Virus record (IMG/VR): IMGVR_UViG_3300032157_000016
Span: 1-49,282 of that record
Source: a virus
Reading direction: 5' to 3' (one strand)
Length of the DNA: 49,282 nt
Position 1 is the stretch's first letter, and every line of letters starts with the position of its first letter. Shown here piece after piece: positions 1,722 through 25,859 of the stretch. The notes beneath the pieces were generated by a model, which did no database searches, was not told where the DNA came from, and worked only from the letters and a program-made list of their open reading frames with translations. The translations under genes were made by a program, and so were the position numbers.

Positions 1722-3905
1722 CTAAAGCACCGTCACCCTTTCACTACCCCTCGCCGGCTTCACTCTCGCCGCCGCCGGTCGTGCTACGTTGACTACACTC
1801 TCGCCCGCAATCCGCTTCGGTCCCAACTCCGCCAAGAGCGGATTCATCAACACGCGATCGACGGGCAGCGGCAGCAAGAGCAAATCGCTTGGCGTGAGGA
1901 AATCCCTTGCCGGTGACGCCGCTTGCAGCCAGAACAAACCCGCCTGCGTCTGGCGATACTTGGGCGGCGTGAACGTCCCGCCGCTCCACCACGAGATCGC
2001 AGCGGCTTGGGCTTGCGTGTACGTGTTGAAGCTGCTGCCGGTGTGCTGAATCGAAAGCACGACCTGCGAGCCGTCGAGTCGATACGACAAGATGTTCGTG
2101 AACGTGTTGCCGAAGTCGTTGATGGTCGGCTTGTCGAGGTTGAGGCTAATCAAGGCGTTGTAGCTCGCCGCGCCTTGCAAGCCGGTCGTGTTCGACGGTG
2201 AACGGTCTAGTAGGGCGATGTCGCTAAATGTGTTGTCTCGAATCCGGTCCCAGTCCGTATTCTCGCCGGCTTCGTAAGCCAGCCGAATCGAGCACTCGTT
2301 GGCGATGATACGCCGGACCGTGTTTCGCAAAACCTCGTTGTCGGTCTGGTTCGGATTCGTGGCGAGCGCCAAGCCCCAGCCGGGGCACGCCATTCCCGCG
2401 CCGAATAGCACGAGATCCTCCAAGAGACAATCTTGCGTGCCGGTCATTTGAATCCCGGCCGCCGGCCAATCACGAAGCTGGCCGAACGGACCGACGCGAC
2501 CACGACGTAGAATCCAGTCGTTTCCGCCGATGCCACCGGCGCCGTAGCCCAGGATGCCCGTGTGGGCGTAGTTCTCAACCTCGAAATCCTCCAAGGTGAG
2601 TTCGTCGCAGCGATCGCCGCGGAGCATAGAATGCCCGGCTTGACCACGGAAGCGAAGCATGCGACCGAAGAATCGATCAGCCGTGCTTGCCAGGTCGAGA
2701 CCTTCGCTTGTGCCGGTGATCGTCGCGCCGCTTTGATTGTCGCTTTCGATGTACGGGAAATTCCGCTTACTCGGCTCCAGAACGGAATGTGAGAGACGGA
2801 AGTCATTGACGTCGACCGATACGCAACTGACGCTATCATCGGCATCGAGCGGCGATGTGCTGCCCGACCAGCCGTAGTCCTTGAACTCCGAATCGGCGGT
2901 CGGATGACTGACCGAGCATCCGCGATGCTGACCGATGTACGAACCGTGAATCCACGACTCGGCAGACGAGCTTGTGGCGATGCTGCTGAGCGCTAGAACC
3001 GACCCTTGATTGTAAATCCGACGACCACCGGATGCCGTTCGATAACCCAGCGTCCTAATATGCGCCCAAGGAAACAGCTTGCGGTAGCACGCGAACTGCG
3101 TTCCGACTTGGAATACGCCGGCGCTCGTTTCTTCCTTGCCTTGCTCGATGATAGGGTTCGTGCCGGGGTAGTTTCGTGCTACCAATCGCGTCAATTGCGT
3201 TGCCGTCGCACTGAGATTGCGCCAAGCCGTGCGTTTGGTCAGATAGTGCGTCCCGCCGTTCAGATACAGCGTCGTTTCCCGGCCGGCGCGGTTAAAGAAC
3301 CGATCGAACTCGTTGGCCGCGCCGTTGTTCCCCTCGTCGGTGTCCTCGATGTACGCGAACCGGGTCCAGGTGTATTGCTCCGAGCCGTTGAACAGGAACT
3401 GGCCGGGGAGCGGCGTGCCGTTCAGGTCCGCCAGTTGGTTGCTGCTGCCGCGCAATCGTCGCTTCGCCCCCGTGTCACTCGGATCGATCGAAATCACGTC
3501 CGTGCGCCCCGTCATCAGCCCTAGCGGGTCGTAGCCGCTCCACGGCAGGCGTTCGGGGAAGTCGAGCCAGTGCTTTAGAATCGCATCGAGCCATTCGTCC
3601 CGGTCGTGCAGCGTCAGCGTCGTGTCGATCGCCCACGAGCAATCGGCGCGGGCTTTGGCGATGAGATACGTCTTCGCTTCGCTAGTCAGCAGTGTCGGGT
3701 CAGCAACCCACGAGGCGAACAGCGTCGAGTAGGCAACGAAGTCATCGATAACGTCGGTGCGGAACCAGGCGCGGTTGATCGCCTTGACTTGGGCGAGGGT
3801 TAGGGCGTCGGGGGATGGAGACACACCGGCGCCGATTAGACCGCCGGTAATCATTTCGGCGATGCTGCCGGGGATGCCATAAGCGATGACGCCGCGGACG
3901 GCCAT
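1722..3905 (-). CDS. putative tailspike or tail fibre with a beta-helix-like domain
   Basis: 727 aa. Residues 1-150 are helical and may be the virion-attachment part. From about residue 150 to 620 there are many short turns rich in Gly, Asn and Asp (GNDWILRRGRVGPFG, TGTQDCLLEDLVLFG, NEVLRNTVRRIIAN), the pattern of right-handed parallel beta-helix (pectate-lyase-like) proteins. Known family behaviour: such domains form trimeric tailspikes that bind or cleave surface polysaccharide. No catalytic motif can be assigned by eye. Its start overlaps the upstream stop (TGATG). It ends in a short basic tail, PARGSERVTVL, that is duplicated downstream. The host-range role is inferred from fold and position. 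Confidence 0.65.
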   Translation of the reverse strand: MAVRGVIAYGIPGSIAEMITGGLIGAGVSPSPDALTLAQVKAINRAWFRTDVIDDFVAYSTLFASWVADPTLLTSEAKTYLIAKARADCSWAIDTTLTLHDRDEWLDAILKHWLDFPERLPWSGYDPLGLMTGRTDVISIDPSDTGAKRRLRGSSNQLADLNGTPLPGQFLFNGSEQYTWTRFAYIEDTDEGNNGAANEFDRFFNRAGRETTLYLNGGTHYLTKRTAWRNLSATATQLTRLVARNYPGTNPIIEQGKEETSAGVFQVGTQFACYRKLFPWAHIRTLGYRTASGGRRIYNQGSVLALSSIATSSSAESWIHGSYIGQHRGCSVSHPTADSEFKDYGWSGSTSPLDADDSVSCVSVDVNDFRLSHSVLEPSKRNFPYIESDNQSGATITGTSEGLDLASTADRFFGRMLRFRGQAGHSMLRGDRCDELTLEDFEVENYAHTGILGYGAGGIGGNDWILRRGRVGPFGQLRDWPAAGIQMTGTQDCLLEDLVLFGAGMACPGWGLALATNPNQTDNEVLRNTVRRIIANECSIRLAYEAGENTDWDRIRDNTFSDIALLDRSPSNTTGLQGAASYNALISLNLDKPTINDFGNTFTNILSYRLDGSQVVLSIQHTGSSFNTYTQAQAAAISWWSGGTFTPPKYRQTQAGLFWLQAASPARDFLTPSDLLLLPLPVDRVLMNPLLAELGPKRIAGESVVNVARPAAARVKPARGSERVTVL
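1728..1745. repeat. 18-bp direct repeat, copy 2
   Basis: Identical to 1466-1483, 262 bp away. Here it is the real 3' end of the 727-aa tailspike candidate gene. Together the two copies bracket the small gene at 1485-1718. Confidence 0.85.
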
Positions 3906-5242
3906 CAGCCTGCCCTCGTGATCGAGGTCGGATCTTCGGCGTCGTCGAGCGTATACGTCGCAGCGACCGTCGAATGATTGAATTTCTTGAGCGTTTTAGT
4001 AGTCGTTCCGCTCGTACTCGCCTCGCCAAGATGAGCCAGCGTTTCGCAGCACGCTTGAGCCAGCGTCGGCGCCGCCCCGTTTGTGCGGTAACTCTCGGTC
4101 ATCTGCGTCGTCAGAACGGCAGTTGCGTTCTCCGCGGCAGTCGGTAGGGCGTCGAGTTGCGTATCGAGGTTGGCGCTCGCTAGACCGACAGCAGTGCGAA
4201 TCCCGGCGGCATCGATGTCGGTAAATCCCGTGACACCAACGCCCTTGGCCAAGACGATATTCGTACCAGCGGTCAGCACGCGCGTCGCAACCGCCCACAC
4301 ATCCGCCGCCGAGTGCGTGGAGTAGCTCGCCGCCACAATCGTTCGCGCCTCAAATTCGGCGACGGTCGGAACGTCGAGTAATAGTGTCCGCAGGGCCGCG
4401 TTCCCGTGAGTGCCGCTATTGACGATGGCGTAAGCGTCCCCGGTTTGGGCAGTGCCCATATTGTCTCGAATCGCCTGCTGAGAATCCGTCGTATTGTCAT
4501 AAGCCCCCGCCCCGCTTCCCCAGTTCTGATTGATCCACCCCAGGGCGCTCGACAAGTCGGCGGCTGCGGCGGCATCCTTGCGGGCGAGCAATGCGACGAA
4601 CTGACGCAAAGACGTGATGTCTGCAATCGTGTCCAGGGTCAGCGTTGCCTCAGCGGAGTCGTTGTGAAACAGAGCGTGCCAGTTAGTGATAGCGTCGGCG
4701 GTGATCGCCGACCCGCCAAGGTGCGTAACATTCGCCTTCCACACGTCATTCGTCGCGTCGTAGTTCGTGGCGAAGTCGGTCGCAAACACCGTGTTCAGGT
4801 TCGTGATCGACGTGGCGGATGGCGTTCTCGCCAACACCGCCGCAATATCCGCCGACACGCTCGCCCCAGCCGGAGCGCCGAGACGGGCGAAACTATCGCC
4901 GGTCTGCGCCGTGCCGTATCCCGCCGCGCTCGCCGCAAACAAGGCGTCGTAAACCGCCTCCTCGATGACCTGCATCCGCACCGGAGCGCAGGCATTCGTC
5001 GTGTCATCAATGGCGACGGTCAGCAGCCCCACCGTATCCGTATCCGAGGTCGTCAGCACGAGGTCGTATGTCCCGGCGCTAACGTGCGTGAGCGTTGCCG
5101 AGCCGTTCAACGCCGCGAAGTTGCCCGTGGTTTTCTTGAGCTTGAAGTCGCCGACGACGCAATCCGTCACGGCCACGCCATCCGCATCCAGGACGGGGCC
5201 GATGGAAAGCTCCAACGCTGTTGATTGCCGTGCTGGGATCAT
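3905..5242 (-). CDS. fibre-like structural protein, Ala/Thr-rich
   Basis: 445 aa. The start MIPARQSTALELS was chosen because its ATG forms an ATGA overlap with the upstream stop. The N-terminal 110 residues look like an Ig-like or baseplate-type beta domain (GPVLDADGVAVTDC and later VSAGTYDLVLTTSDTDTVG). The rest is a long Ala/Thr/Asp-rich series of short helices with repeated phrases such as GTAQTGDSFARLG and GTAQTGDAYAIV. This layout is typical of phage fibre or neck-whisker shafts. No enzyme motif is seen. It lies between the LamG-like protein and the tailspike candidate, so a tail-fibre shaft or connector role is inferred. Confidence 0.6.
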   Translation of the reverse strand: MIPARQSTALELSIGPVLDADGVAVTDCVVGDFKLKKTTGNFAALNGSATLTHVSAGTYDLVLTTSDTDTVGLLTVAIDDTTNACAPVRMQVIEEAVYDALFAASAAGYGTAQTGDSFARLGAPAGASVSADIAAVLARTPSATSITNLNTVFATDFATNYDATNDVWKANVTHLGGSAITADAITNWHALFHNDSAEATLTLDTIADITSLRQFVALLARKDAAAAADLSSALGWINQNWGSGAGAYDNTTDSQQAIRDNMGTAQTGDAYAIVNSGTHGNAALRTLLLDVPTVAEFEARTIVAASYSTHSAADVWAVATRVLTAGTNIVLAKGVGVTGFTDIDAAGIRTAVGLASANLDTQLDALPTAAENATAVLTTQMTESYRTNGAAPTLAQACCETLAHLGEASTSGTTTKTLKKFNHSTVAATYTLDDAEDPTSITRAG

Positions 5243-6036
5243 GCTGCCCCTCCAATCAGAACCCGCCGCCGACGATTGCCTGCCGGTGCTGCCACCGACT
5301 GCGCCACCACTCTCCGCTTGATCCAATTAAGGGTCTGCGGGCTGCCGAGGCGAAGTTCGTTGTGAACGGACAGCATTTCGCTTGCCGACAGCACTCGCCC
5401 CCAAACCGACACGTAGGTAATTTTTCCAGGCCACGGACGATCGGCAGCCGCACGATTGCCGATGATGACGGGATTGGAGTTGGTAGCGATTGCCCCCGTG
5501 ACGGTGGTTGACCCACCGGCCAATCCATCCGAGTAAATAATCATGCCATTCGTTTCACCGCTGCGGTACGTTCCGCCAATGGTTCGCCAGTTGCCCGTCA
5601 CGGTCGGGACTGCCGGAGAGACTTGCAGATTGGTTCCGTTGATGAGGAACTGCGGGGTAGTTTGCGTGCCGTAGTTGATAGCAAATGAAGCCACGTCGTT
5701 TTTCGTGATGATGCGACCATTGCTAACCGCTCCAGATGCCCAGACTCGCGCGACAACCGTAAGTTCCGTAAGTCCGCTGACCGGCACGTCTCCACAGGTC
5801 ACGTAGTCGTTGCTGCCATCGAAGTCCAATGCCCCGAACAGACCGCTGCCCGCTGCCCCCACCCAATCAGTCGCCGGGTCCATGTTGGTGAGAACGCCCG
5901 TATTTCGACGGCAAAGATCAATCAACGTACTGCCGCCCATCAACCCCGGAACGCACAGCCAGCGCGAAACTAGACCGCGATTCAGCGGGTCTAGCCAGTT
6001 GATCGGGCACACCATGTCGAGGGCTGGGGCGGTCAT
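5239..6036 (-). CDS. LamG/concanavalin A-like lectin domain protein
   Basis: 265 aa. The core at about residues 60-225 reads as a LamG-like jelly roll: ALDFDGSNDYVTCGD, then LTVVARVWASG, GRIITKND, IYSDGLAGGS and the closing strand ITYVSVWGRVLSASEM. Known family behaviour: these folds bind glycans and are frequent in phage adhesion proteins. A basic C-terminus (RRRRVLIGGAA) ends at an ATGA overlap with the next fibre gene. A short N-terminal segment (PLNRGLVSRWL) resembles phage proteins in which such domains decorate tail tips or capsids. It is inferred to bind the planctomycete surface. Confidence 0.75.
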   Translation of the reverse strand: MTAPALDMVCPINWLDPLNRGLVSRWLCVPGLMGGSTLIDLCRRNTGVLTNMDPATDWVGAAGSGLFGALDFDGSNDYVTCGDVPVSGLTELTVVARVWASGAVSNGRIITKNDVASFAINYGTQTTPQFLINGTNLQVSPAVPTVTGNWRTIGGTYRSGETNGMIIYSDGLAGGSTTVTGAIATNSNPVIIGNRAAADRPWPGKITYVSVWGRVLSASEMLSVHNELRLGSPQTLNWIKRRVVAQSVAAPAGNRRRRVLIGGAA

Positions 6037-6662
6037 CAGGCGATGTTGTCGGAGTCGTGCGTGATGGCAATGGCTTTAATGTGACCATTCGCGCCAGTCG
6101 CCCCTTCGTGCGACCAGATAACGCGAAACGATTCCACCGACTCCAGGTTCAGGGACACAACGAAGCGGCTGGCGTCGTTCCAGATGACATCTGACGAGTC
6201 CTTTTGATTCGTCAAGCCATCTTCCAGCGTGATACTGGTATTCGTGACCTGCGTGCGTTCTGTCGCCCACTCACTGTCGGCGAGTGTGCCCGTATCTTGG
6301 ATGTAGAGTTCGTCGCCAACCGCGAATCCAGTCGTGCTTGCGACCGCCATGACGGTTTCTGCCACCGGCTCTGTTGCCGTCATGGCCTCGGTGTCCGGCG
6401 TCGTCCCCTTCGCGGTCAACGTAGCGACCGTGATCCAATGCTCGGTTGCCGTTCCGTCACCCGCATCGGGGCGAACCTGGACTTTGAATGATCCGGGATT
6501 CGTGTCAGCCGTCGCTTCGACGTAGCCGTGGTAGAGGAAGATCGTCGCCGCCCGCTTCGTGCGGCAGTCGATCGCCGACCCCACAATCGTCGTCGGATGC
6601 GTTGCCGCTTGATGCGCCAGCACTTCGACGGAATCAGTTTTGTTCGGCGTGACTGTGGACAT
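6036..6662 (-). CDS. hypothetical structural protein
   Basis: 208 aa, beta-rich, with no signal peptide. It contains a central GFAVGDELYIQDTGTLADSE segment resembling the DELYIQ-type strands of phage tail proteins, and a C-terminal strand VESFRVIWSHEG. No family is named with confidence. It is coupled to the LamG-like gene by a TGATG overlap and starts 3 nt after the upstream stop, so it belongs to the same fibre and adhesion run. Confidence 0.6.
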   Translation of the reverse strand: MSTVTPNKTDSVEVLAHQAATHPTTIVGSAIDCRTKRAATIFLYHGYVEATADTNPGSFKVQVRPDAGDGTATEHWITVATLTAKGTTPDTEAMTATEPVAETVMAVASTTGFAVGDELYIQDTGTLADSEWATERTQVTNTSITLEDGLTNQKDSSDVIWNDASRFVVSLNLESVESFRVIWSHEGATGANGHIKAIAITHDSDNIA

Positions 6663-6664
6663 GG

Positions 6665-7171
6665 TTAGCTAGGTAGATTGAGTGCGTCGATAACGTCTTG
6701 CGAAGTGATCGGCTGGTCGTAACCCAGAACGGCAGGACCGTTGCCGTCGGCGTCGATCGACGTGCCAGCGCCAGAAGTTTTCAGAAGCTTCTCGGCAACC
6801 GTTGCATCTCGCTGGCAATGCGAAAAGACAACGGCACGGTTCGCCAAGTCGGCAGCAGTGCCCTTCCAGCACTCAACGATGCCAGCGCGGATGCCAGCGC
6901 CAGAAGGATCGAAACCATTCTCGCCGTTGACTTCCTTGGACCGAGAAAGCCACGTCCAGATTCGATCCTTGCCGACCGAAAGATTGTCAACACGAGTCCA
7001 GTCAAAGCCGTTGTTGAAAATCTCCCGCTCGGAAACGAATGGTCGATAGACTTTGAACGCCGGGCTAGCGGTCGTATTCAATGCCGCCGCCGCCTCATGT
7101 TCTGTCATCGCTCCGGCATTCGCCAGCAGCCACGTTTTCAGGGTCGCCAATTGTTCGTTCGTTAGTGCCAT
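6665..7171 (-). CDS. conserved phage protein of unknown function
   Basis: 168 aa starting MALTNEQLATLKTWLLAN, with AGGAGGA upstream. The N-terminal helix and the central segment VDNLSVGKDRIWTWLSRSKE resemble a small protein seen near tail and lysis genes of many tailed phages. The family name is not recalled and no activity is known. The protein is soluble and lacks membrane segments. It is the first member of the fibre run after the membrane/coiled-coil gene, with a 66-nt gap upstream that may hold regulatory sequence, although no clear promoter is seen there. Confidence 0.65.
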   Translation of the reverse strand: MALTNEQLATLKTWLLANAGAMTEHEAAAALNTTASPAFKVYRPFVSEREIFNNGFDWTRVDNLSVGKDRIWTWLSRSKEVNGENGFDPSGAGIRAGIVECWKGTAADLANRAVVFSHCQRDATVAEKLLKTSGAGTSIDADGNGPAVLGYDQPITSQDVIDALNLPS

Positions 7172-7237
7172 CGCTCAGTCCTCCTATTCGTTCAACCACA
7201 ACTCTCGTCGCCGCTCGTGCCGTGACGGCGGGCGAAT

Positions 7238-7579
7238 TCATTCCTTACTCACCCGGTCGATCCGTTTCTCGGCGTCGCGGAGACGCTTTAAGGCGTCGTC
7301 CATGTCCGACTTCATTCGCTCCTGGTTGATGCTCAGTCGCTCGGCAACCAGTGTTAGCCGGTCGATAATCTCTCGCTGCTTCTCGATCGCTACTGCCCTC
7401 TGCCCGTTTTGTTCCTTCGATAACTCACTGGCTTGCTCGACTCGCAACCACGAGGCACATGCCACGAGCAGCAAGCCGATGATTCCGATCCACTGCCCCA
7501 CCGTGACCTTGATCGGGGTGGACGCCGTGATCGAGCCATTGCGATGCCGTGAGTCGTCACACGCTGCTGCGTCTGCCAT
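7238..7579 (-). CDS. membrane-anchored coiled-coil protein
   Basis: 113 aa. A polar N-terminus of about 25 residues is followed by one membrane helix (VTVGQWIGIIGLLLVACASWL, about 25-45), then a long charged coiled coil to the end (KEQNGQRAVAIEKQREII, RMKSDMDDALKRL). This architecture is common in phage holin-associated or spanin-like inner membrane components. GGAAGGGG lies 7 nt before the ATG. With no endolysin visible nearby, a role in lysis is inferred from topology only. Confidence 0.6.
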   Translation of the reverse strand: MADAAACDDSRHRNGSITASTPIKVTVGQWIGIIGLLLVACASWLRVEQASELSKEQNGQRAVAIEKQREIIDRLTLVAERLSINQERMKSDMDDALKRLRDAEKRIDRVSKE

Positions 7580-7599
7580 CGCTTGCCCCTTCCTTGGTT

Positions 7600-7651
7600 A
7601 AAAAACGGCGGGCCGCCTCGTCACACCAAACAAACACAACGACCCGCCGTT
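7600..7651 (-). terminator. intrinsic terminator closing the protease-peroxidase unit
   Basis: A 9-bp perfect stem (aacggcggg at 7604-7612 with cccgccgtt at 7643-7651) precedes a run of six T on the minus strand (7605-7600). The loop of 30 nt is long for an intrinsic terminator. A second hairpin (8-bp stem, 10-nt loop, 7664-7689) lies just upstream in the direction of transcription, and 7652-7726 holds no gene. Confidence 0.55.
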
Positions 7652-7726
7652 CTCCCGCCAAGCCATCCGCAAGCGACGGGCTGCGGATGACCGTGCTTCA
7701 ACATGACTCCGCCGAGTCCGTGTCTA

Positions 7727-8173
7727 CTAGCCGCTTGCCGAGCTACGGCTGATCGTCTTGCCGTTACGACGGACGACCGTCACCGCCTTCGACTTGCTGG
7801 CACCACCGCGATTACGAATCGGAGCCGTAGCGATACGAACCGGAGCGGCAAGCGCGCTCACCACGCCGCTGCTTTGATTGCACGTACCGCCAACGCACCC
7901 GCCTTGGGCCTGAGCCTGGACGCTCGCTTGCGGAGCCGGAGCGATAAACGCAACCTGCGGGCGAGCCGAACTAGCCGTCGCCGTAGCCGTCGCCGCACGC
8001 TGCGGACTCAAAGCCAAGCCTTGCAAGGCGCGAATCTGAGCCTCGATAGCCGCGTTCTGCACGCTTGCCGCGCTCGACGCGCTGCTCGACTGACTCTGAA
8101 CATTGCATCGCTGCGCACTCGCCTGGACGGCACAAGCCGCCAGCACAACCAGAGCTAAAACGAAACGAAACAT
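7727..8173 (-). CDS. secreted Ala/Ser/Gln-rich protein
   Basis: 148 aa with a clear Sec signal peptide (MFRFVLALVVLAACAVQASA, cleavage after residue 20). The mature part is low in complexity, rich in Ala, Ser and Gln, with a Gly/Cys cluster (GGCVGGTCNQSSG) and a basic C-terminus. Such proteins are common in planctomycete genomes and unusual in phages. GGAGGTG lies 5 nt before the start. It is the last gene of the unit that begins at 11439 and is followed by the terminator at 7600-7651. The function is unknown; an envelope role is inferred. Confidence 0.7.
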   Translation of the reverse strand: MFRFVLALVVLAACAVQASAQRCNVQSQSSSASSAASVQNAAIEAQIRALQGLALSPQRAATATATASSARPQVAFIAPAPQASVQAQAQGGCVGGTCNQSSGVVSALAAPVRIATAPIRNRGGASKSKAVTVVRRNGKTISRSSASG

Positions 8174-8194
8174 GGCACACCTCCAAAAAATGGG

Positions 8195-8980
8195 TTAATC
8201 CTTCACGCGCCCCAACGTGGACGCTATTTCTTCCAAGCACGACACGGCGCTCGCCGCCGTGGTAATCTCTCCTAATTCCCGACGCTGCTGAATGATCGCG
8301 TGAACCTGATCGATAAACGGTCGCCAGTTTTCCGACCGGCCGTCTAGCGCCGATCGAATGTGGCTCTCAACTTCCGACGCCACGTCCGCTCCCGGTTCGA
8401 CGTAGCCCCCTTGGATTCGATTGACGAGCGACCGCACGCTACCGGCGACCACTCGCGCGTCTGCCGTTCGCCCGTCGCCGCTCACGTGATCCAAGGCGGC
8501 CTGAGTCAGTTCGCCGACCGATAACGGCGGAGGCGGCACGAACGCTTGCGCGGCCACCGGCGCGGGCTGCTCTGTTGAGGCATCATTGATTTGCAGATTG
8601 GTGAACGACAGCGAATCTAGACAGACCAATCGCCCCTCGCCGGCCACCGTAACGATGACGTGGTAATCGCCATCGACGTTACTGTGAAAGCGGGCGCGTC
8701 GTCCGTCCGGGAACACGGTCAAGGCATTCGGGGTATCCGGCACGAGCCGCCACAGGGGGCGACCACATTCGCCTTGCACGTCAACGTGAAAGTAGCTCTC
8801 GACGCCTTGCAGCGTTTCACCGGGGCCGTAGACCTTCAGCGAAATCATGTCAACGCGATTGACCGGACGCAGGTAATTGATCCACCCGGCGTCGTAAGCA
8901 AACAGCGCGGCGATCCCCGCGCCGCCCAGCACGACGACGAGACCGACCAAACCAACGGCGATGGATAGCGTTCGCTTCAT
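8195..8980 (-). CDS. membrane-anchored protein with a beta domain
   Basis: 261 aa. An N-terminal membrane helix (about residues 6-29, IAVGLVGLVVVLGGAGIAALF) anchors an exported domain. Residues 45-130 look like an Ig/PKD-type beta sandwich (GVESYFHVDVQGECGRPLW, VDGDYHVIVTVAGEGR). A Pro-rich linker (VAAQAFVPPPPLS) leads to a helical C-terminal domain. No family is named. Its ATG overlaps the stop of the peroxidase gene (ATGA), so it is translated with it. It could be a periplasmic partner or an anchor for the protease and peroxidase. Confidence 0.65.
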   Translation of the reverse strand: MKRTLSIAVGLVGLVVVLGGAGIAALFAYDAGWINYLRPVNRVDMISLKVYGPGETLQGVESYFHVDVQGECGRPLWRLVPDTPNALTVFPDGRRARFHSNVDGDYHVIVTVAGEGRLVCLDSLSFTNLQINDASTEQPAPVAAQAFVPPPPLSVGELTQAALDHVSGDGRTADARVVAGSVRSLVNRIQGGYVEPGADVASEVESHIRSALDGRSENWRPFIDQVHAIIQQRRELGEITTAASAVSCLEEIASTLGRVKD

Positions 8981-10020
8981 GGCAGCGTCGGGGCCTCGAT
9001 CATCGGGTAACGTGATCCGCTAAAGCCTTCCTTCAGGAGCGTCGCCAGATACTTGCGCTGCGTGTCGGTCAGGTCCAGCGGCTTGATGCGTGGGTCCATG
9101 AATCGATCGCGTGTGCCATCGAACTTCATGCCGCCGGTCGAGTAGTGCAGCACGACCCGCTCGGTGGATTCCATTGCGCCGTGATGACCGTAGGGCGCGG
9201 TCTTTTCGTGGTCCCGTAGTGTCGGCGTCTTGAACGCGCGAATCATGGCGTTCGTGCGCAGGTTGCGTGGCACCTCGTTGAATCGCCCAACATCGAACTG
9301 ACCACGCGGCTGAATCAATCCCGCGTGTTCAAACCCGTTGTTGTGAAACAGATTGTCCGTCCACAGCGGCGGCTTGTGGCACGCCTTGCAGTTCGCTTTC
9401 TCGAAGATGCGATAGCCAACCTGAGCATCGGGCGAGAGGGCTTTCTTGTCACCCTTCTCGAATCGATCGATCGGGGCGTCGAAGCTCGTCACACTCGACT
9501 CAAATGCCGCCAGCGCGTAAGCCAAATTCGCCCCCGTGATCGCCGATCGGCTCGCCGTGTCGATGTTGAATGATTCCGTGAACAGCCGGACGTAGCCGGG
9601 GATCAGCTTCAACCGCTCCACCACGTCGGCGTCGTTTTGCGGATTGACCTGATTCGCCATCTCGTTCGGATTGGCGAGCGGCAACAGTGATTGCGTCGTC
9701 GTCGCCACCGTCCGTCCGTCCCAAAAGACGAGCGGCGTGTAACCCGAATTGATGATCGTCGGCGTGTGCCGATTGCCAACTCGACCGTCGATGCCGACCG
9801 CCAGGGCGCGACCATCCGCCCAGCCCTTGCGCGGGTCGTGGCAAGTCGAACAAGAGACCGATCCGTTTTGCGACAATCGCGGGTCAAAGAACAACTTCCG
9901 CCCAAGCTCGATATGCGAAGCACTCGGCTTGACGCCAAACGGCGCTGGCTGGGGCGGAACCTGAGCGCTTGCCGTGGAGGCGATGCATAGCGCAATGATG
10001 TAACCGACGCGACGGATCAT
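8977..10020 (-). CDS. di-heme cytochrome c peroxidase (CcpA/MauG family)
   Basis: 347 aa. Sec signal peptide at 1-19 (MIRRVGYIIALCIASTASA). Two c-type heme sites: CSTCH at 57-61 and CKACH at 211-215. Family landmarks are all present: GRKLFFDPRLS, the VFWDGR motif near residue 98, the NPNEM motif near 118, and the C-terminal TPTLRDHEKTAPYGHHGA motif. Length is normal (about 330-360). Known family reaction: reduction of H2O2 with electrons from a c-type protein, or (MauG) oxidation of a protein substrate; the site is the periplasm. Coupled on both sides (ATGA) to a subtilase and a membrane protein. A di-heme peroxidase in a phage is very unusual. Heme loading would depend on the host maturation system. 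Confidence 0.93.
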   Translation of the reverse strand: MIRRVGYIIALCIASTASAQVPPQPAPFGVKPSASHIELGRKLFFDPRLSQNGSVSCSTCHDPRKGWADGRALAVGIDGRVGNRHTPTIINSGYTPLVFWDGRTVATTTQSLLPLANPNEMANQVNPQNDADVVERLKLIPGYVRLFTESFNIDTASRSAITGANLAYALAAFESSVTSFDAPIDRFEKGDKKALSPDAQVGYRIFEKANCKACHKPPLWTDNLFHNNGFEHAGLIQPRGQFDVGRFNEVPRNLRTNAMIRAFKTPTLRDHEKTAPYGHHGAMESTERVVLHYSTGGMKFDGTRDRFMDPRIKPLDLTDTQRKYLATLLKEGFSGSRYPMIEAPTLP

Positions 10021-11009
10021 GCGACCCTCTTGCCGATGAAGTAACCACCGGGGAGGCTAAGCACCAACGTCCCGCAAACCCGATCGTCTTTCGGCTTCTC
10101 GCCGATCGCTTCCAATGCCTTGCGAGCGTTAATCAGTTTGAACTTCGTGCCGTTGACCGCATCGACGCTGTTGCGTGCCATGTGGTCCTCCGCGTCGGCG
10201 CTCGTATCGATCGCCGTGTCGCTGCCAACTTCCTTTTCCTTGCGGAGTGCCAGGGCGACGATTGCCGCCACGACGGGCGTAGCTTGGCTCGTGCCGGTCA
10301 TCACGCCGTATCGATTCCCCGGTAGGCAGCCGAGCATATCGACCCCCGGACCCAGGACACGCAGCCGGTCCGACCGGGACGTGAAGCGGGTGATCCGTCC
10401 GTCGTTGCCGAAGGCGCCGACCGGAAAGACGTTTGGCAATGCCGCTGGATAATTCAAAGCGTTGCCGCCGTCGTTCCCAGCCGCCGCCAGAACCGCCAGC
10501 GGGCGATTGGCTTGTTTGGCGTCGGTCGCAATCTCCGTCAACAGCGAAGCCAGACGGGGCATTCTGTCGGGACCGCCGAGCGACATCGAGATGACCCACG
10601 CCCCTTGATCGTATGACCAACGGACGCCCGCCATGATCGCTTCTTCGCTGCCGGCCCCGCTGTCGCCGAGCACCTTACCGCAGATCAGTTTGCACAACGG
10701 AGCGATGCCCCGAATGCCGATGCTATTCCCGGCTCGTGCGCCCACGAGAGAGGCGACGTGCGTACCGTGCCCGTGACGATCCTGCGCTCCCCAGCGGGAA
10801 CGAGTGAAGTCCTGGACGTTGTGAATCGCTCCGTCAAGGTCGGGATGCCCGGTGTCAACGCCGGTATCGAGAATCGCCACGCGGATGTTCTCGCCCTTCG
10901 ATGCTCGCCAAGCGTCTTCGATGCCCAATAGCGCATCGCTCCACGACACGGACTCCGAAAACGGAATCGTGCTCGGCGTGATTCGGACATCGGGCGGCAG
11001 ACCAATCAT
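10017..11009 (-). CDS. subtilisin-like serine protease (S8 family)
   Basis: 330 aa, a single peptidase S8 domain. Catalytic triad visible: Asp48 in AILDTGVD, His81 in HGHGTHVAS, Ser241 in GTSQATP; the oxyanion Asn is Asn179 in AAAGNDGG. There is no signal peptide and the pre-domain is only about 25 residues, so it may be made active in the cytoplasm or exported another way. The start ATG overlaps the upstream stop (TGATG) and the end overlaps the peroxidase start (ATGA). Known family activity: broad or selective proteolysis. In this position it could process the neighbours, attack the host envelope, or act in lysis. The activity call is firm; the role is inferred. Confidence 0.93.
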   Translation of the reverse strand: MIGLPPDVRITPSTIPFSESVSWSDALLGIEDAWRASKGENIRVAILDTGVDTGHPDLDGAIHNVQDFTRSRWGAQDRHGHGTHVASLVGARAGNSIGIRGIAPLCKLICGKVLGDSGAGSEEAIMAGVRWSYDQGAWVISMSLGGPDRMPRLASLLTEIATDAKQANRPLAVLAAAGNDGGNALNYPAALPNVFPVGAFGNDGRITRFTSRSDRLRVLGPGVDMLGCLPGNRYGVMTGTSQATPVVAAIVALALRKEKEVGSDTAIDTSADAEDHMARNSVDAVNGTKFKLINARKALEAIGEKPKDDRVCGTLVLSLPGGYFIGKRVA

Positions 11010-11326
11010 CAGCCGGAAATCTTCTTGAGCAACAGTTGAAAGATCAGTTGACCAATCGGCGACTCGTAGAAGTTCTTCAGCTTCTCGATCAACTTGCCGT
11101 CGCCGATCCGCTGCGCTTCCGCAATCGCCATGACCGAAGCTTCGTCGGGATATTCGCTGGCGATGACCGATGACAGAATCGGCACCAGCAAGTCGCCAAG
11201 CCGCTTCACACCGGACCAGTAGTTGTCGATTCCTTCGGCGTGGGTGATGTCCTCAACCGCCTCCACGATGTCGTCGAGTTGCGAGGCGAACGGCAAGAGT
11301 CGCGTGATGACGGCAAGCCAGGACAT
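11009..11326 (-). CDS. small helical protein with hydrophobic ends
   Basis: 105 aa. The start MSWLAVITRLLPF was chosen for the GGAG seven nt upstream; an in-frame ATG 42 nt earlier lies inside the 36-aa gene. The N-terminal helix is amphipathic, a segment LGDLLVPILSSVIAS is hydrophobic, and the C-terminus (PIGQLIFQLLLKKISG) is amphipathic and basic. This looks like a membrane-associated helper. The family is not recognised. It is coupled by TGATG to the protease gene, so it could be a holin-like or chaperone partner. Confidence 0.6.
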   Translation of the reverse strand: MSWLAVITRLLPFASQLDDIVEAVEDITHAEGIDNYWSGVKRLGDLLVPILSSVIASEYPDEASVMAIAEAQRIGDGKLIEKLKNFYESPIGQLIFQLLLKKISG

Positions 11327-11328
11327 GG

Positions 11329-11439
11329 TTAGCTCCAAGGGTAAAAGCGAATGCCGCAGACCCAGCACGCCAGACGCGCTAGCGCATCAACGAACAAGCC
11401 GATGGCGAGCGTCCAGCGGAGGGATGGTAGGCGGCTCAT
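11329..11439 (-). CDS. 36-aa membrane peptide, first gene of the protease-peroxidase unit
   Basis: Starts MSRLPSLRWTLAIGLF and has 36 aa with one hydrophobic segment (about 9-29, including LFVDALARLACWVCG) and a Trp-rich end. GAGAGGA lies 7 nt upstream of the ATG. It is the first gene after the strong promoter at 11524-11552 and ends 2 nt before the next gene. Length and topology match the coupled peptide at 309-419, although the sequences differ. The function is unknown. Confidence 0.6.
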   Translation of the reverse strand: MSRLPSLRWTLAIGLFVDALARLACWVCGIRFYPWS

Positions 11440-11523
11440 CAGACGGTCCTCTCACGTACTCGGCCATGCCGATACGTGGGGACCATGCCACCACGGGCGG
11501 GGAGAATTCCCGCCATTGACCGA

Positions 11524-11552
11524 ATTGTTGCCCCTCCGTGGGGCGTTGTCAA
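11524..11552 (-). promoter_or_regulatory. sigma-70-type promoter for the protease-peroxidase unit
   Basis: On the minus strand TTGACA (11552-11547), 17-nt spacer, AACAAT (11529-11524). The spacer contains the inverted repeat GCCCC-ACGGA-GGGGC, which could be an operator. The leader to the first ATG is about 78 nt. The stretch 11440-11558 holds no other gene. Confidence 0.7.
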
Positions 11553-11845: not shown

Positions 11846-11873
11846 ATTATTGAATCTCATCACCCAAAGTCAA
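11846..11873 (-). promoter_or_regulatory. promoter candidate with downstream palindrome
   Basis: On the minus strand TTGACT (11873-11868), 16-nt spacer, AATAAT (11851-11846). A perfect 12-bp palindrome, cggcttaagccg at 11821-11832, lies at about +6 to +17 and may be a regulator site or RNA hairpin. It would drive the zinc protein gene at 11559-11801. Confidence 0.55.
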
Positions 11874-12073
11874 TCCACCCGATCCGCCTCATCCCCGGTC
11901 GGCTGTCGCCTTGCCGGATTAACGTCGCTCCACGACTCTTCGCGCACCAACTCGATTCCATCAGGCAGGTCGATAGTCAACTCAACTCGCCGGTCGGCGC
12001 TGATCCGCAACGGCACGTAGCCCGGTATGCGAATCAACACAGCCTGCCCCGCCTTTCTGGTCAATGTCGGCAT
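11870..12073 (-). CDS. CsrA-like RNA-binding regulator
   Basis: 67 aa. The N-terminal strand LTRKAGQAVLI and the closing LPDGIELVREE match CsrA/RsmA (LTRxxGExxxI ... APxxxxVxREE), with strands between them of the expected size. Known family role: a small dimer that binds GGA motifs in mRNA leaders and blocks or stabilises translation. The C-terminal 20 residues are acidic and extra. AAGGA lies 7 nt before the ATG. As the penultimate gene of the early leftward run it could control the phage late switch or host mRNAs; that is inference. Confidence 0.75.
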   Translation of the reverse strand: MPTLTRKAGQAVLIRIPGYVPLRISADRRVELTIDLPDGIELVREESWSDVNPARRQPTGDEADRVD

Positions 12074-24267: not shown

Positions 24268-25476
24268 CTAGAGATTCCATTCCGCTCGCCGGCGTTTCAT
24301 TAGGTCGAGATACTTTTCGTAAGCTCGCGAGCGATGCTGCGTGAAAGACAATCCCTTGCACCAGTAATCGTTGCGAAGAAGCGACTTGCAAACTCGCCGC
24401 CAACTAGGGACTTTGCGTGCTGCCTCTAGCTTCGGATCGGCTTCATCGGGAATCCCTTCGTCGTATCCGCGTTGCATCCACCAGCGACGAAAGACGGCGA
24501 CTTTGTTTCCGTAATGCTCGCGAGTTCGTGGCGGCATCGACGCAATCAAAAGTTTCGCGAAGCTTTCCCACGTATGCCCCTCCGGCTTGCTGATCGCGCG
24601 ATAGCCCGTCACGTTGCCGGTCTCTTGGACATACAACGCACCTCCGTTCGCGCCATTGACTCGTGCGACCACTCGCGCCCACGTATCCGGTTCGATCAAA
24701 TGAAACAGCCACAAGCCACGTCGCTGGTCGTCGCCGTAGGGCTGGCAGATTCGCATTTGATGAATCGTCAGCCCGGCTTTGTGCATCAATTCGTAAAGAC
24801 GATTCGACGGAGCCTCTTTGTTGCGTGCGTGCCACGTCCAAAGGTCTTGCGTTTTCCAATCGTAGAGCGGGTAGATGTTGTAGACGTTATCGACAACGAG
24901 CGTCGTCCACTGCTTGCCCTCGAATGGTTGCTTAGTCTTGCTGGCGATTGTCCGAAAGCGATTCAAGCTTTCGTCAGTTCGGATACCAACGAAGCACGCA
25001 CATGGCTTGCCTTCCGCATACCACTTACCGAACTCCGGCACGAACTCCTCGAACTCCATGCCGGGCCGAAAGAATGGAAAGAACCCCTTGTCGCTGATCG
25101 CTTGTTTCGGCAGCGGTCGAATCCATGCGGGGCGTTTTTCTTCATCCCAGCAAACCCAGTGCGTTTCGTAGACCGACACTGCGTTGCGAAGATGGATCGG
25201 CAGGCAAACCCAATAGGGTTCGCTGCAATCGTCATACGCATCGAAGCACGCTTGAACGTGTTCGATGGTGCATTTGTATTGACCCTCTAAGTCGATGAAC
25301 ATCATCCCGAACTTTCGGTTTCGCTTACGGGCTTCCTCTGCCACAAGATGCAACATGACCGTGGAGTCTTTGCCGCCAGAAAAACTGACGTAGACTTTCT
25401 CGAAACGATCGAACACGAAAGCGATCCGCTCGCGTGCCGCCGTTAGAACGTCAATCCCAACTGCTCGCTTTGGCAC
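24268..25476 (-). CDS. ibrA-like: IbrA-like PAPS-reductase-superfamily protein (DUF3440)
   Basis: 402 aa with the P-loop motif SFSGGKDST at 31-39 of the adenine-nucleotide alpha hydrolase fold. Downstream are IDLEGQYKCTIEHV, YWVCLPIHLRNAVS, WTTLVVDNVYNIYPLYDWKTQDLW and Cys-rich segments. A GTG start at 25476 was chosen because it gives the usual 7-residue lead to GIDVLTAARERI; an ATG at 25506 is possible. Known: IbrA belongs with IbrB as a two-gene module in E. coli and phages, of unsettled biochemistry. Here an IbrB-like gene sits nearby. Confidence 0.85.
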   Translation of the reverse strand: MPKRAVGIDVLTAARERIAFVFDRFEKVYVSFSGGKDSTVMLHLVAEEARKRNRKFGMMFIDLEGQYKCTIEHVQACFDAYDDCSEPYWVCLPIHLRNAVSVYETHWVCWDEEKRPAWIRPLPKQAISDKGFFPFFRPGMEFEEFVPEFGKWYAEGKPCACFVGIRTDESLNRFRTIASKTKQPFEGKQWTTLVVDNVYNIYPLYDWKTQDLWTWHARNKEAPSNRLYELMHKAGLTIHQMRICQPYGDDQRRGLWLFHLIEPDTWARVVARVNGANGGALYVQETGNVTGYRAISKPEGHTWESFAKLLIASMPPRTREHYGNKVAVFRRWWMQRGYDEGIPDEADPKLEAARKVPSWRRVCKSLLRNDYWCKGLSFTQHRSRAYEKYLDLMKRRRAEWNL

Positions 25477-25859
25477 AGTACGTCTCGCTTGTAGTCCCGT
25501 TCCCATTGCTTGATGACGCGCGTCGCTGCGGCGTTCGCCGCGTACTTCGTGTCGGTGTCGAGCGTGTTCCACGCCAGCCGTGTGCAACTCTCCGGGCAAC
25601 CGAAAACAAAGCAGCACGCGCTTTGACCGAGCCAGGCTCGGCGGTTAATTCCGAAGTTGCTTAAGTTCACAGCCGCCGCGATGGGCCACGCCGATACCGT
25701 CGCAAGCATTGCCGATCCTAGCGCCGCTTCGTCTGACAATAGTTCTCTCGCATGAGCCGCATACTTCGCCTCCTCATCGTCATCTTGCGGTGTGCGATAC
25801 ATGCCGTTGATCCAATCTTCCCACTTCCGATAGTGCTCAAAGACTTGCTGAATCGTCAT
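25443..25859 (-). CDS. hypothetical protein between IbrB-like and IbrA-like genes
   Basis: 138 aa starting MTIQQVFEHYRKWEDWIN, chosen for GGGGAGG 7 nt upstream. It has a Cys cluster SACCFVFGCPESC in the middle and a closing helix RVIKQWERDYKRDVL. The pattern is shared by phage proteins located beside IbrA/IbrB-type genes. It overlaps both neighbours, so the three genes form one translation unit. Confidence 0.65.
   Translation of the reverse strand: MTIQQVFEHYRKWEDWINGMYRTPQDDDEEAKYAAHARELLSDEAALGSAMLATVSAWPIAAAVNLSNFGINRRAWLGQSACCFVFGCPESCTRLAWNTLDTDTKYAANAAATRVIKQWERDYKRDVLCQSEQLGLTF

Follow-up and report, generated by a model that had tools for sequence, protein, structure and literature searches.

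The 49,282-base window analysed here, positions 1 to 49,282 of the IMG/VR virus record IMGVR_UViG_3300032157_000016, belongs to a tailed phage whose terminase (TerL), portal, capsid/protease fusion and tape measure genes are present on the minus strand between 49 and 35 kb; a search of the window for an end repeat found none. Our subject is a unit on the same strand, read from 11.4 to 7.2 kb, in which genes for a 36-residue peptide, a small helical protein, a subtilase, a di-heme peroxidase, a membrane-anchored protein and a secreted protein are followed, beyond a terminator, by a gene for a protein with a transmembrane (TM) segment and a coiled coil. Its features, with lengths in amino acids (aa), are:

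11524..11552, minus strand: promoter-like site TTGACA-17-AACAAT, not above chance
11329..11439, minus strand: putative membrane peptide, 36 aa; a weak candidate open reading frame (ORF) with an AGAGG-like ribosome site, position not conserved
11009..11326, minus strand: small helical protein, 105 aa, with a hydrophobic/amphipathic C-terminal helix; divergent family directly before the protease
10017..11009, minus strand: subtilase (S8), 330 aa; PF00082, E = 1.2e-42; no signal peptide
8977..10020, minus strand: exported di-heme peroxidase of the CCP_MauG family, 347 aa; PF03150, E = 3.2e-47
8195..8980, minus strand: membrane-anchored protein, 261 aa, with an N-terminal TM helix and an immunoglobulin-like (Ig-like) domain; start overlaps the peroxidase stop
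7727..8173, minus strand: small secreted protein, 148 aa, Ser/Ala-rich with 4 Cys and an N-terminal signal
7585..7670, minus strand: intrinsic terminator hairpin, dG -40.6, z -4.2, 18-bp stem followed by U6
7238..7579, minus strand: TM and coiled-coil protein, 113 aa, spanin/holin-like, just beyond the terminator

A preliminary description of this DNA had proposed a self-contained unit of six minus-strand genes lying between a consensus promoter and an intrinsic terminator. All six ORFs exist where it placed them, with matching Peptidase_S8 and CCP_MauG identities, and the coupled starts that it reported through the protease, peroxidase and anchor genes are found at three successive junctions (TGATG between helical and subtilase genes, ATGA between subtilase and peroxidase, ATGA between peroxidase and anchored). 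The terminator was likewise borne out by the hairpin at 7585-7670. The promoter fared worse: the site is present, but four such sites were observed against 1.9 +/- 1.3 in shuffles, which is chance level, and an equally good one lies at 11873. For the helical gene, the most likely start is ATG 11326 with its GGAG ribosome site, rather than GTG 11368. For the 36-aa peptide the family search gave no match, and a comparable small membrane ORF (45 aa) was seen only in contig G041 (below), on the opposite side of the helical gene, after it. We count the TM/coiled-coil gene into the unit, as six other module contigs carry a similar one. The unit matches the structural genes in GC content at third codon positions (GC3; 0.66-0.78 against 0.73-0.77) and so does not look recently acquired. 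Just upstream of it lies a CsrA-like ORF (11873-12073, minus strand; PF02599, E = 0.006, below cut-off), as is also the case in contig L138 (8080-8280, plus strand; 4e-16), and this ORF could possibly be a post-transcriptional regulator carried by these phages.

Scanning IMG/VR contigs with alignment-based queries, we found the same unit in at least nine distinct contigs, namely the window and the following eight, where S8 denotes the subtilase and TM/CC the TM/coiled-coil protein:

G041 (3300005680_000114): helical, S8, peroxidase, extra gene, anchored, secreted, TM/CC
G042 (3300045257_000102): helical, sedolisin, TM/CC, other genes, peroxidase, anchored, secreted
L132 (3300021952_000010): helical, cysteine-protease-like, peroxidase, anchored, secreted, TM/CC; between MuF-like and putative scaffold/capsid genes
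L133 (3300007769_000065): S8, TM/CC, peroxidase, anchored, secreted; after the portal, with no helical gene found
L135 (3300019458_000063): helical, S8, peroxidase, anchored, secreted, TM/CC
L136 (3300048597_000624): helical, S8, peroxidase, anchored, secreted, TM/CC
L137 (3300031576_000023): helical, S8, peroxidase, anchored, secreted
L138 (3300028830_000319): helical, unclassified 271-aa protein, peroxidase, anchored, two secreted proteins

Alignment queries were needed, as single-sequence scans of viral contigs with the window peroxidase or subtilase confirmed nothing and a two-sequence subtilase scan returned G041 only. L131, an identical copy of L132, was left out of the counts, and the prophage-like contig L092 was rejected as a module locus because the peroxidase at its end resembles a host gene. 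Outside the unit, the window has a few divergent replication or structural genes in common with G041 and G042 and no match at E 1e-3 to the six other loci. Wherever the peroxidase and anchored genes are directly adjacent (7/7 loci), the stop of the first and the start of the second overlap by 4 nt (ATGA or GTGA). The genes whose failure ever to co-occur elsewhere would have counted against the preliminary description thus stand together in eight further contigs, in a recurring order, and the unit is a real, conserved and self-contained working unit. Its genes, order, coupling and export signals are conserved, while its protease and heme slots are exchangeable.

The individual families were assessed with leave-one-out hidden Markov models, each built without the test locus, after which the ORFs of that locus were ranked. 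This recovered the peroxidase in 9/9 loci (E <= 5e-68) and placed the anchored protein first in 11/11 tested loci (E 5e-51 to 4e-11; 9.2e-49 in the window) and the secreted protein first in six of nine (1.4e-11 in the window). The helical protein ranked first in 8/10 loci among 52-612 ORFs with weak E values of 0.0016-0.38 (in the window, first of 470 ORFs at 0.36), and the TM/coiled-coil protein in seven of eight, again weakly (0.002-0.33); given these values, both families rest on position and rank, not on significance. An AlphaFold model of the anchored protein (mean predicted local distance difference test score, pLDDT, 81) comprises a TM helix, an Ig-like beta sandwich (47-129) and a helical C-terminal domain; with this protein Foldseek returned generic Ig-like matches only and family searches no MbnP or Pfam match. 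In G041 and G042 its Ig-like domain has another residue in place of the conserved Trp, and in some loci the N-terminus resembles a cleavable signal rather than an anchor. The helical proteins share hydrophobic or amphipathic C-terminal helices (maximum hydropathy 1.15-2.17) and have no PHROG holin match. Across loci the TM/coiled-coil proteins give weak matches to Rz-like spanins or holin; the window protein matches the Rz-like spanin family PHROG 89 at 2.4e-4, a second Rz-like match among these proteins reaches 2.2e-4, and no o-spanin was identified.

By simple hydropathy, the peroxidase, anchored and secreted proteins carry N-terminal hydrophobic export segments (for the L135 peroxidase the stretch was read from its sequence), and such a segment is absent in all nine proteins of the protease slot. 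As only those three carry export segments, the protease would be made in the cytoplasm while the others would act in or beyond the periplasm. The envelope direction ascribed to the unit in the preliminary description therefore fits the three exported proteins and, by sequence, not the protease, which is signal-less in all nine contigs.

The window subtilase is a clear Peptidase S8 member (PF00082, 146.7 bits against a cut-off of 21.8), with PDB matches to subtilisins and intracellular proteases (1e-38 to 3e-40), and its catalytic residues D48, H81 and S241 and oxyanion N179 are invariant in the six phage copies. It resembles the intracellular subtilisin proteases in lacking a signal peptide, in its short N-terminal extension and in PDB matches at 1e-38. 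The N-terminal LIPY/F motif of that group is defined as [LVI]-[IFLV]-P-[YFH] (PMC6220982), and the phage motif, LPP[YD] in 5/6 copies, falls outside it, so that by this motif the phage proteins do not belong to the group. Subtilases of Bacillus and Moorella phages share the S8 domain (up to 38% identity); in the one region of Moorella phage MTATph1 that we inspected, no peroxidase or anchored partner was seen, unlike in the unit.

Of the nine slot proteins, six are S8 proteases, one is an S53 kumamolisin, one is cysteine-protease-like and one is unclassified. The G042 protein is of the kumamolisin type including its pro-domain (PDB 1t1e, 3.7e-71; Pfam pro-kumamolisin). That of L132 belongs to phrog_19005; its sole relative in the phage collection, in MW202816.1 (34% identity), bears a cysteine protease annotation, and the gene of this relative shares 10 nt with a true Amidase_2 gene (PF01510, 1.5e-19). 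In the 271-aa protein of L138 an HExxE motif is present, and searches of Pfam, NCBIfam, PHROG and PDB gave no match; calling it a metalloprotease was rejected, as the motif stood alone and a single-sequence model was useless (pLDDT 32), and that it is a protease at all is a guess.

The window peroxidase is a member of CCP_MauG (PF03150, 161.3 bits against a cut-off of 25.6) with the heme motifs CSTCH and CKACH, and both motifs are kept in the alignment of all nine phage enzymes. In a tree of these nine and 15 other sequences, a comparison set without planctomycetes, the phage enzymes form one clade (support 84/93; 86% of bootstraps). By profile, the solved structures nearest to the window enzyme are bacterial cytochrome c peroxidases, with CcpA/MacA (PDB 4aal, 9qdt) giving the highest PDB scores; these are alike in fold and heme motifs but differ in gene context, in falling outside the phage-only clade and in their CcpA-type Met-ligand segment, which is not seen in the phage enzymes, where a Tyr stands instead. 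This residue, Tyr293 in the window, aligns with the Tyr of the EHYVRGG segment of Methylobacterium MauG and is kept in 7/9 phage enzymes. The six-coordinate heme of MauG is Tyr-His ligated and that of canonical peroxidases Met-His ligated (PMC6405878); the Tyr293 position may thus be a heme ligand in the phage enzymes.

Against the curated models, the window enzyme scores 222.5 bits for TIGR03791 (tryptophan tryptophylquinone, TTQ, MauG; cut-off 443.85) and 165.9 bits for TIGR04039 (MbnH; cut-off 362.85), and by these cut-offs it is an orthologue of neither. It shares the di-heme CCP_MauG fold, two CxxCH motifs and the EHY-segment Tyr with MauG, whose cut-off is about twice the phage score, and the phage unit has a protease and an Ig-like anchor and no methylamine dehydrogenase. 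The MbnH-MbnP system is similar in that the gene of a MauG-like enzyme adjoins that of an envelope partner (the Deinococcus homologue follows an MbnP gene); it differs in that the phage anchored partner is not MbnP in any family search.

The preliminary description had held both enzymes to be hardly ever reported in phages, which is true of di-heme peroxidases and untrue of subtilases: 39 phage records match the subtilase, the best phage profile for its domain is PHROG 3677, and viral contigs yielded 412 confirmed candidate subtilase stretches. The idea that a subtilase implies a peroxidase proved false, as only 4/80 viral subtilase loci have one, all four already known. Five peroxidase matches in the phage collection came down to one real phage, C48C1 (OQ984149, Kyanoviridae, 156 kb); at least one of the others is simply Salmonella DNA, and the remainder appear mislabelled. 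AFYI01000003 (in which ccmA adjoins the peroxidase), AGRM01000003, OR850884 and OR845265 are probably host di-heme peroxidase DNA filed as phage. C48C1 itself carries a separate, very distant and unannotated CCP_MauG protein of ~470 aa (L087, 7740-9161), and about 25 viral contigs (L093-L119), several of them large, carry such a protein too (21-24% identity); the five such records checked lack a subtilase.

Because the module loci were retrieved via the peroxidase, the frequency of the protease without it is not measurable from them. Such arrangements do exist. In L141 (3268-7526), the helical and subtilase genes are followed by two secreted CxxCH proteins in place of the peroxidase, one of them weakly a cytochrome c (PF13442, 1.4e-4). 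The anchored family stands beside a subtilase without a peroxidase in the large phages L156, L157, L161 and L163 and in L167, and in L157 and L161 also beside a papain-like protease (PF00112, 0.006 to 0.013, below cut-off). These last two (2748-8523 and 2886-8520), from phages of 93-190 kb, hold two helical-plus-protease units, one papain-like and one subtilase, together with the anchored family, and adjoin a 492-aa protein of no known identity. Since the heme slot is replaced in L141 and the anchored family occurs with proteases but without the peroxidase elsewhere, the common core is the protease, the helical protein and the anchored protein, and the di-heme enzyme marks one branch.

Based on these data, we tentatively favour, at somewhat less than an even chance, the reading that the unit is a conserved cassette by which the phage breaks or remodels its host's envelope, most probably at lysis, with a protease in place of a peptidoglycan-cutting endolysin. 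The protease, having no export signal, would build up in the cytoplasm; the helical protein might then perturb the inner membrane or deliver the protease in a holin-like manner, whereupon the protease would digest a protein-rich envelope and the TM/coiled-coil protein would act as spanin or holin. Meanwhile, the exported di-heme enzyme may oxidise the anchored Ig-like protein, the secreted Cys protein or envelope proteins. The anchored protein, whose gene is translationally coupled to that of the enzyme, would be its partner and be made together with it.

Several observations argue for this lysis reading. The presence of different catalytic classes in one slot suggests a need for proteolysis as such, and exchange of class at one position is known from endolysins and hard to square with a specific maturation protease. 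The overlap of the MW202816.1 homologue with an amidase gene points to a lysis context. Recurrence in nine dissimilar contigs, with essentially the module genes alone matching the window, counts in the same direction, as does the association of the anchored family with subtilase or papain-like proteases without a peroxidase. The layout also resembles a holin-endolysin-spanin cassette, in that a membrane-active-looking small protein directly precedes a signal-less hydrolase, with a spanin-like TM/coiled-coil protein nearby and an enzyme slot that swaps unrelated hydrolases, one family of which (phrog_19005) overlaps an amidase gene in another phage; classical endolysins, like all nine slot proteins, lack an export segment. 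It differs in that the hydrolase is a protease and that an exported heme enzyme and Ig-like anchored and secreted proteins are added. Planctomyces envelopes have been reported to consist almost wholly of protein with much Pro and Cys, stabilised by disulfides (PMC3035269), and if bacteria of this type are the hosts, a protease with an oxidising enzyme would make a sensible lysis kit.

Other points weigh against it. Peptidoglycan has since been found in planctomycetes (PMC5814848), and both the functional steps and the identity of the host are inferred. The helical protein is no obvious transmembrane holin and shows weak homology (E 0.0016 to 21), the position of the unit relative to the structural genes varies, the peroxidase has no evident part in lysis, and the L138 slot protein offers its HExxE motif with no family match. 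In the window, no peptidoglycan hydrolase that would qualify as a canonical endolysin was recognised, and the other module records gave none either among the families searched. However, 14 capsid-related control phages also lack the same families (three families checked; for PF05838 no positive control gave a match) and unrecognised hydrolases may exist, so this absence carries no weight and was dropped as proof of protease lysis.

It is also conceivable, if rather unlikely, that the unit encodes a MauG/MbnH-like modification pair, in which the di-heme enzyme oxidises its coupled Ig-like partner or the secreted Cys protein, the protease trims a precursor and the modified surface protein changes the infected cell. 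The 4-nt coupling of peroxidase and anchored genes in 7/7 directly adjacent loci fits such a pair, as do the best NCBIfam models for the enzyme (TTQ MauG, 6e-66; MbnH, 1e-48), the MauG-like Tyr of 7/9 enzymes and a weak similarity of the subtilase to the peptide-maturation proteases QhpE and PatA. All scores nevertheless fall far under the MauG and MbnH cut-offs, the Tyr is common to many unrelated bacterial peroxidases, and L137 and L138 have lost the Trp that lies between the hemes. The anchored partner, moreover, has no MbnP or Pfam match and lacks the conserved Ig-domain Trp in G041 and G042, and protease-class swapping would be odd for a specific maturation enzyme.

We consider it less probable again that the unit serves to alter the surface of the infected host, with superinfection exclusion, adhesion or aggregation as the aim; the exported proteins and oxidase would then change surface proteins and the protease would remove receptors or defence proteins. 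Three proteins are exported, one of them anchored with an Ig-like domain of a type frequent in surface proteins, and in L133 the unit adjoins a lectin-like (LamG/BNR) gene. This is countered by the signal-less protease of all nine contigs, by a GC3 equal to that of the late structural genes and by the copies in or beside the structural cluster (several, including L132 and L133), which suggest late expression. That the peroxidase is an auxiliary metabolic gene removing periplasmic hydrogen peroxide among mostly unrelated passengers is improbable: bacterial cytochrome c peroxidases are its closest solved structures and unrelated CCP_MauG genes occur in the Kyanoviridae record and some 25 distant viral contigs, but passengers would have been lost, whereas order, coupling and anchored partner have been kept across the nine dissimilar contigs, and the anchored gene is retained even where the peroxidase is absent. 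Least credible is a virion protease that cuts a proteinaceous surface layer at entry while the rest aids assembly or display. In its favour, the unit lies between portal/MuF and capsid or fibre genes in L132 and L133, and PHROG 3677 is a family of far longer proteins (1125 positions). Against it, a virion would have no use for exported and anchored partners, the placement of the unit with respect to tail genes varies, and no fusion to structural domains was seen.

Elsewhere in the window, a PAPS-reductase-type auxiliary gene (24268-25617, minus strand; phrog_2302, 2e-84) adjoins ParB-like and exonuclease VIII-like genes.

The envelope-breaching reading can be extended, with considerable doubt, to an undescribed form of phage lysis in which a helical protein, a protease of exchangeable class and a di-heme enzyme paired with an anchored protein of its own open protein-rich walls, perhaps those of Planctomycetota, by proteolysis and heme-driven oxidation rather than peptidoglycan hydrolysis. 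One G042 protein (L126, 17437-18432) starts with MKLAYETLESRLMLS, which resembles the LEPR-xLLS N-terminal motif of planctomycete surface proteins and so hints at a host of that group; for the LEPR-like motif, ETLESRLMLS, NCBIfam gave no match. Built from known families, the unit is apparently undescribed as far as could be checked: in PMC full text we found no paper on it, on a phage di-heme peroxidase module or on protease-based lysis of such hosts, nor one on Planctomycetes phages with regard to lysis of protein-based envelopes. The lysis of bacteria with protein-reliant envelopes has been little studied, and if our reading is true, these phages would offer a testable system of lysis or envelope remodelling, a possible new use of di-heme enzymes and genetic markers by which such phages may be recognised.

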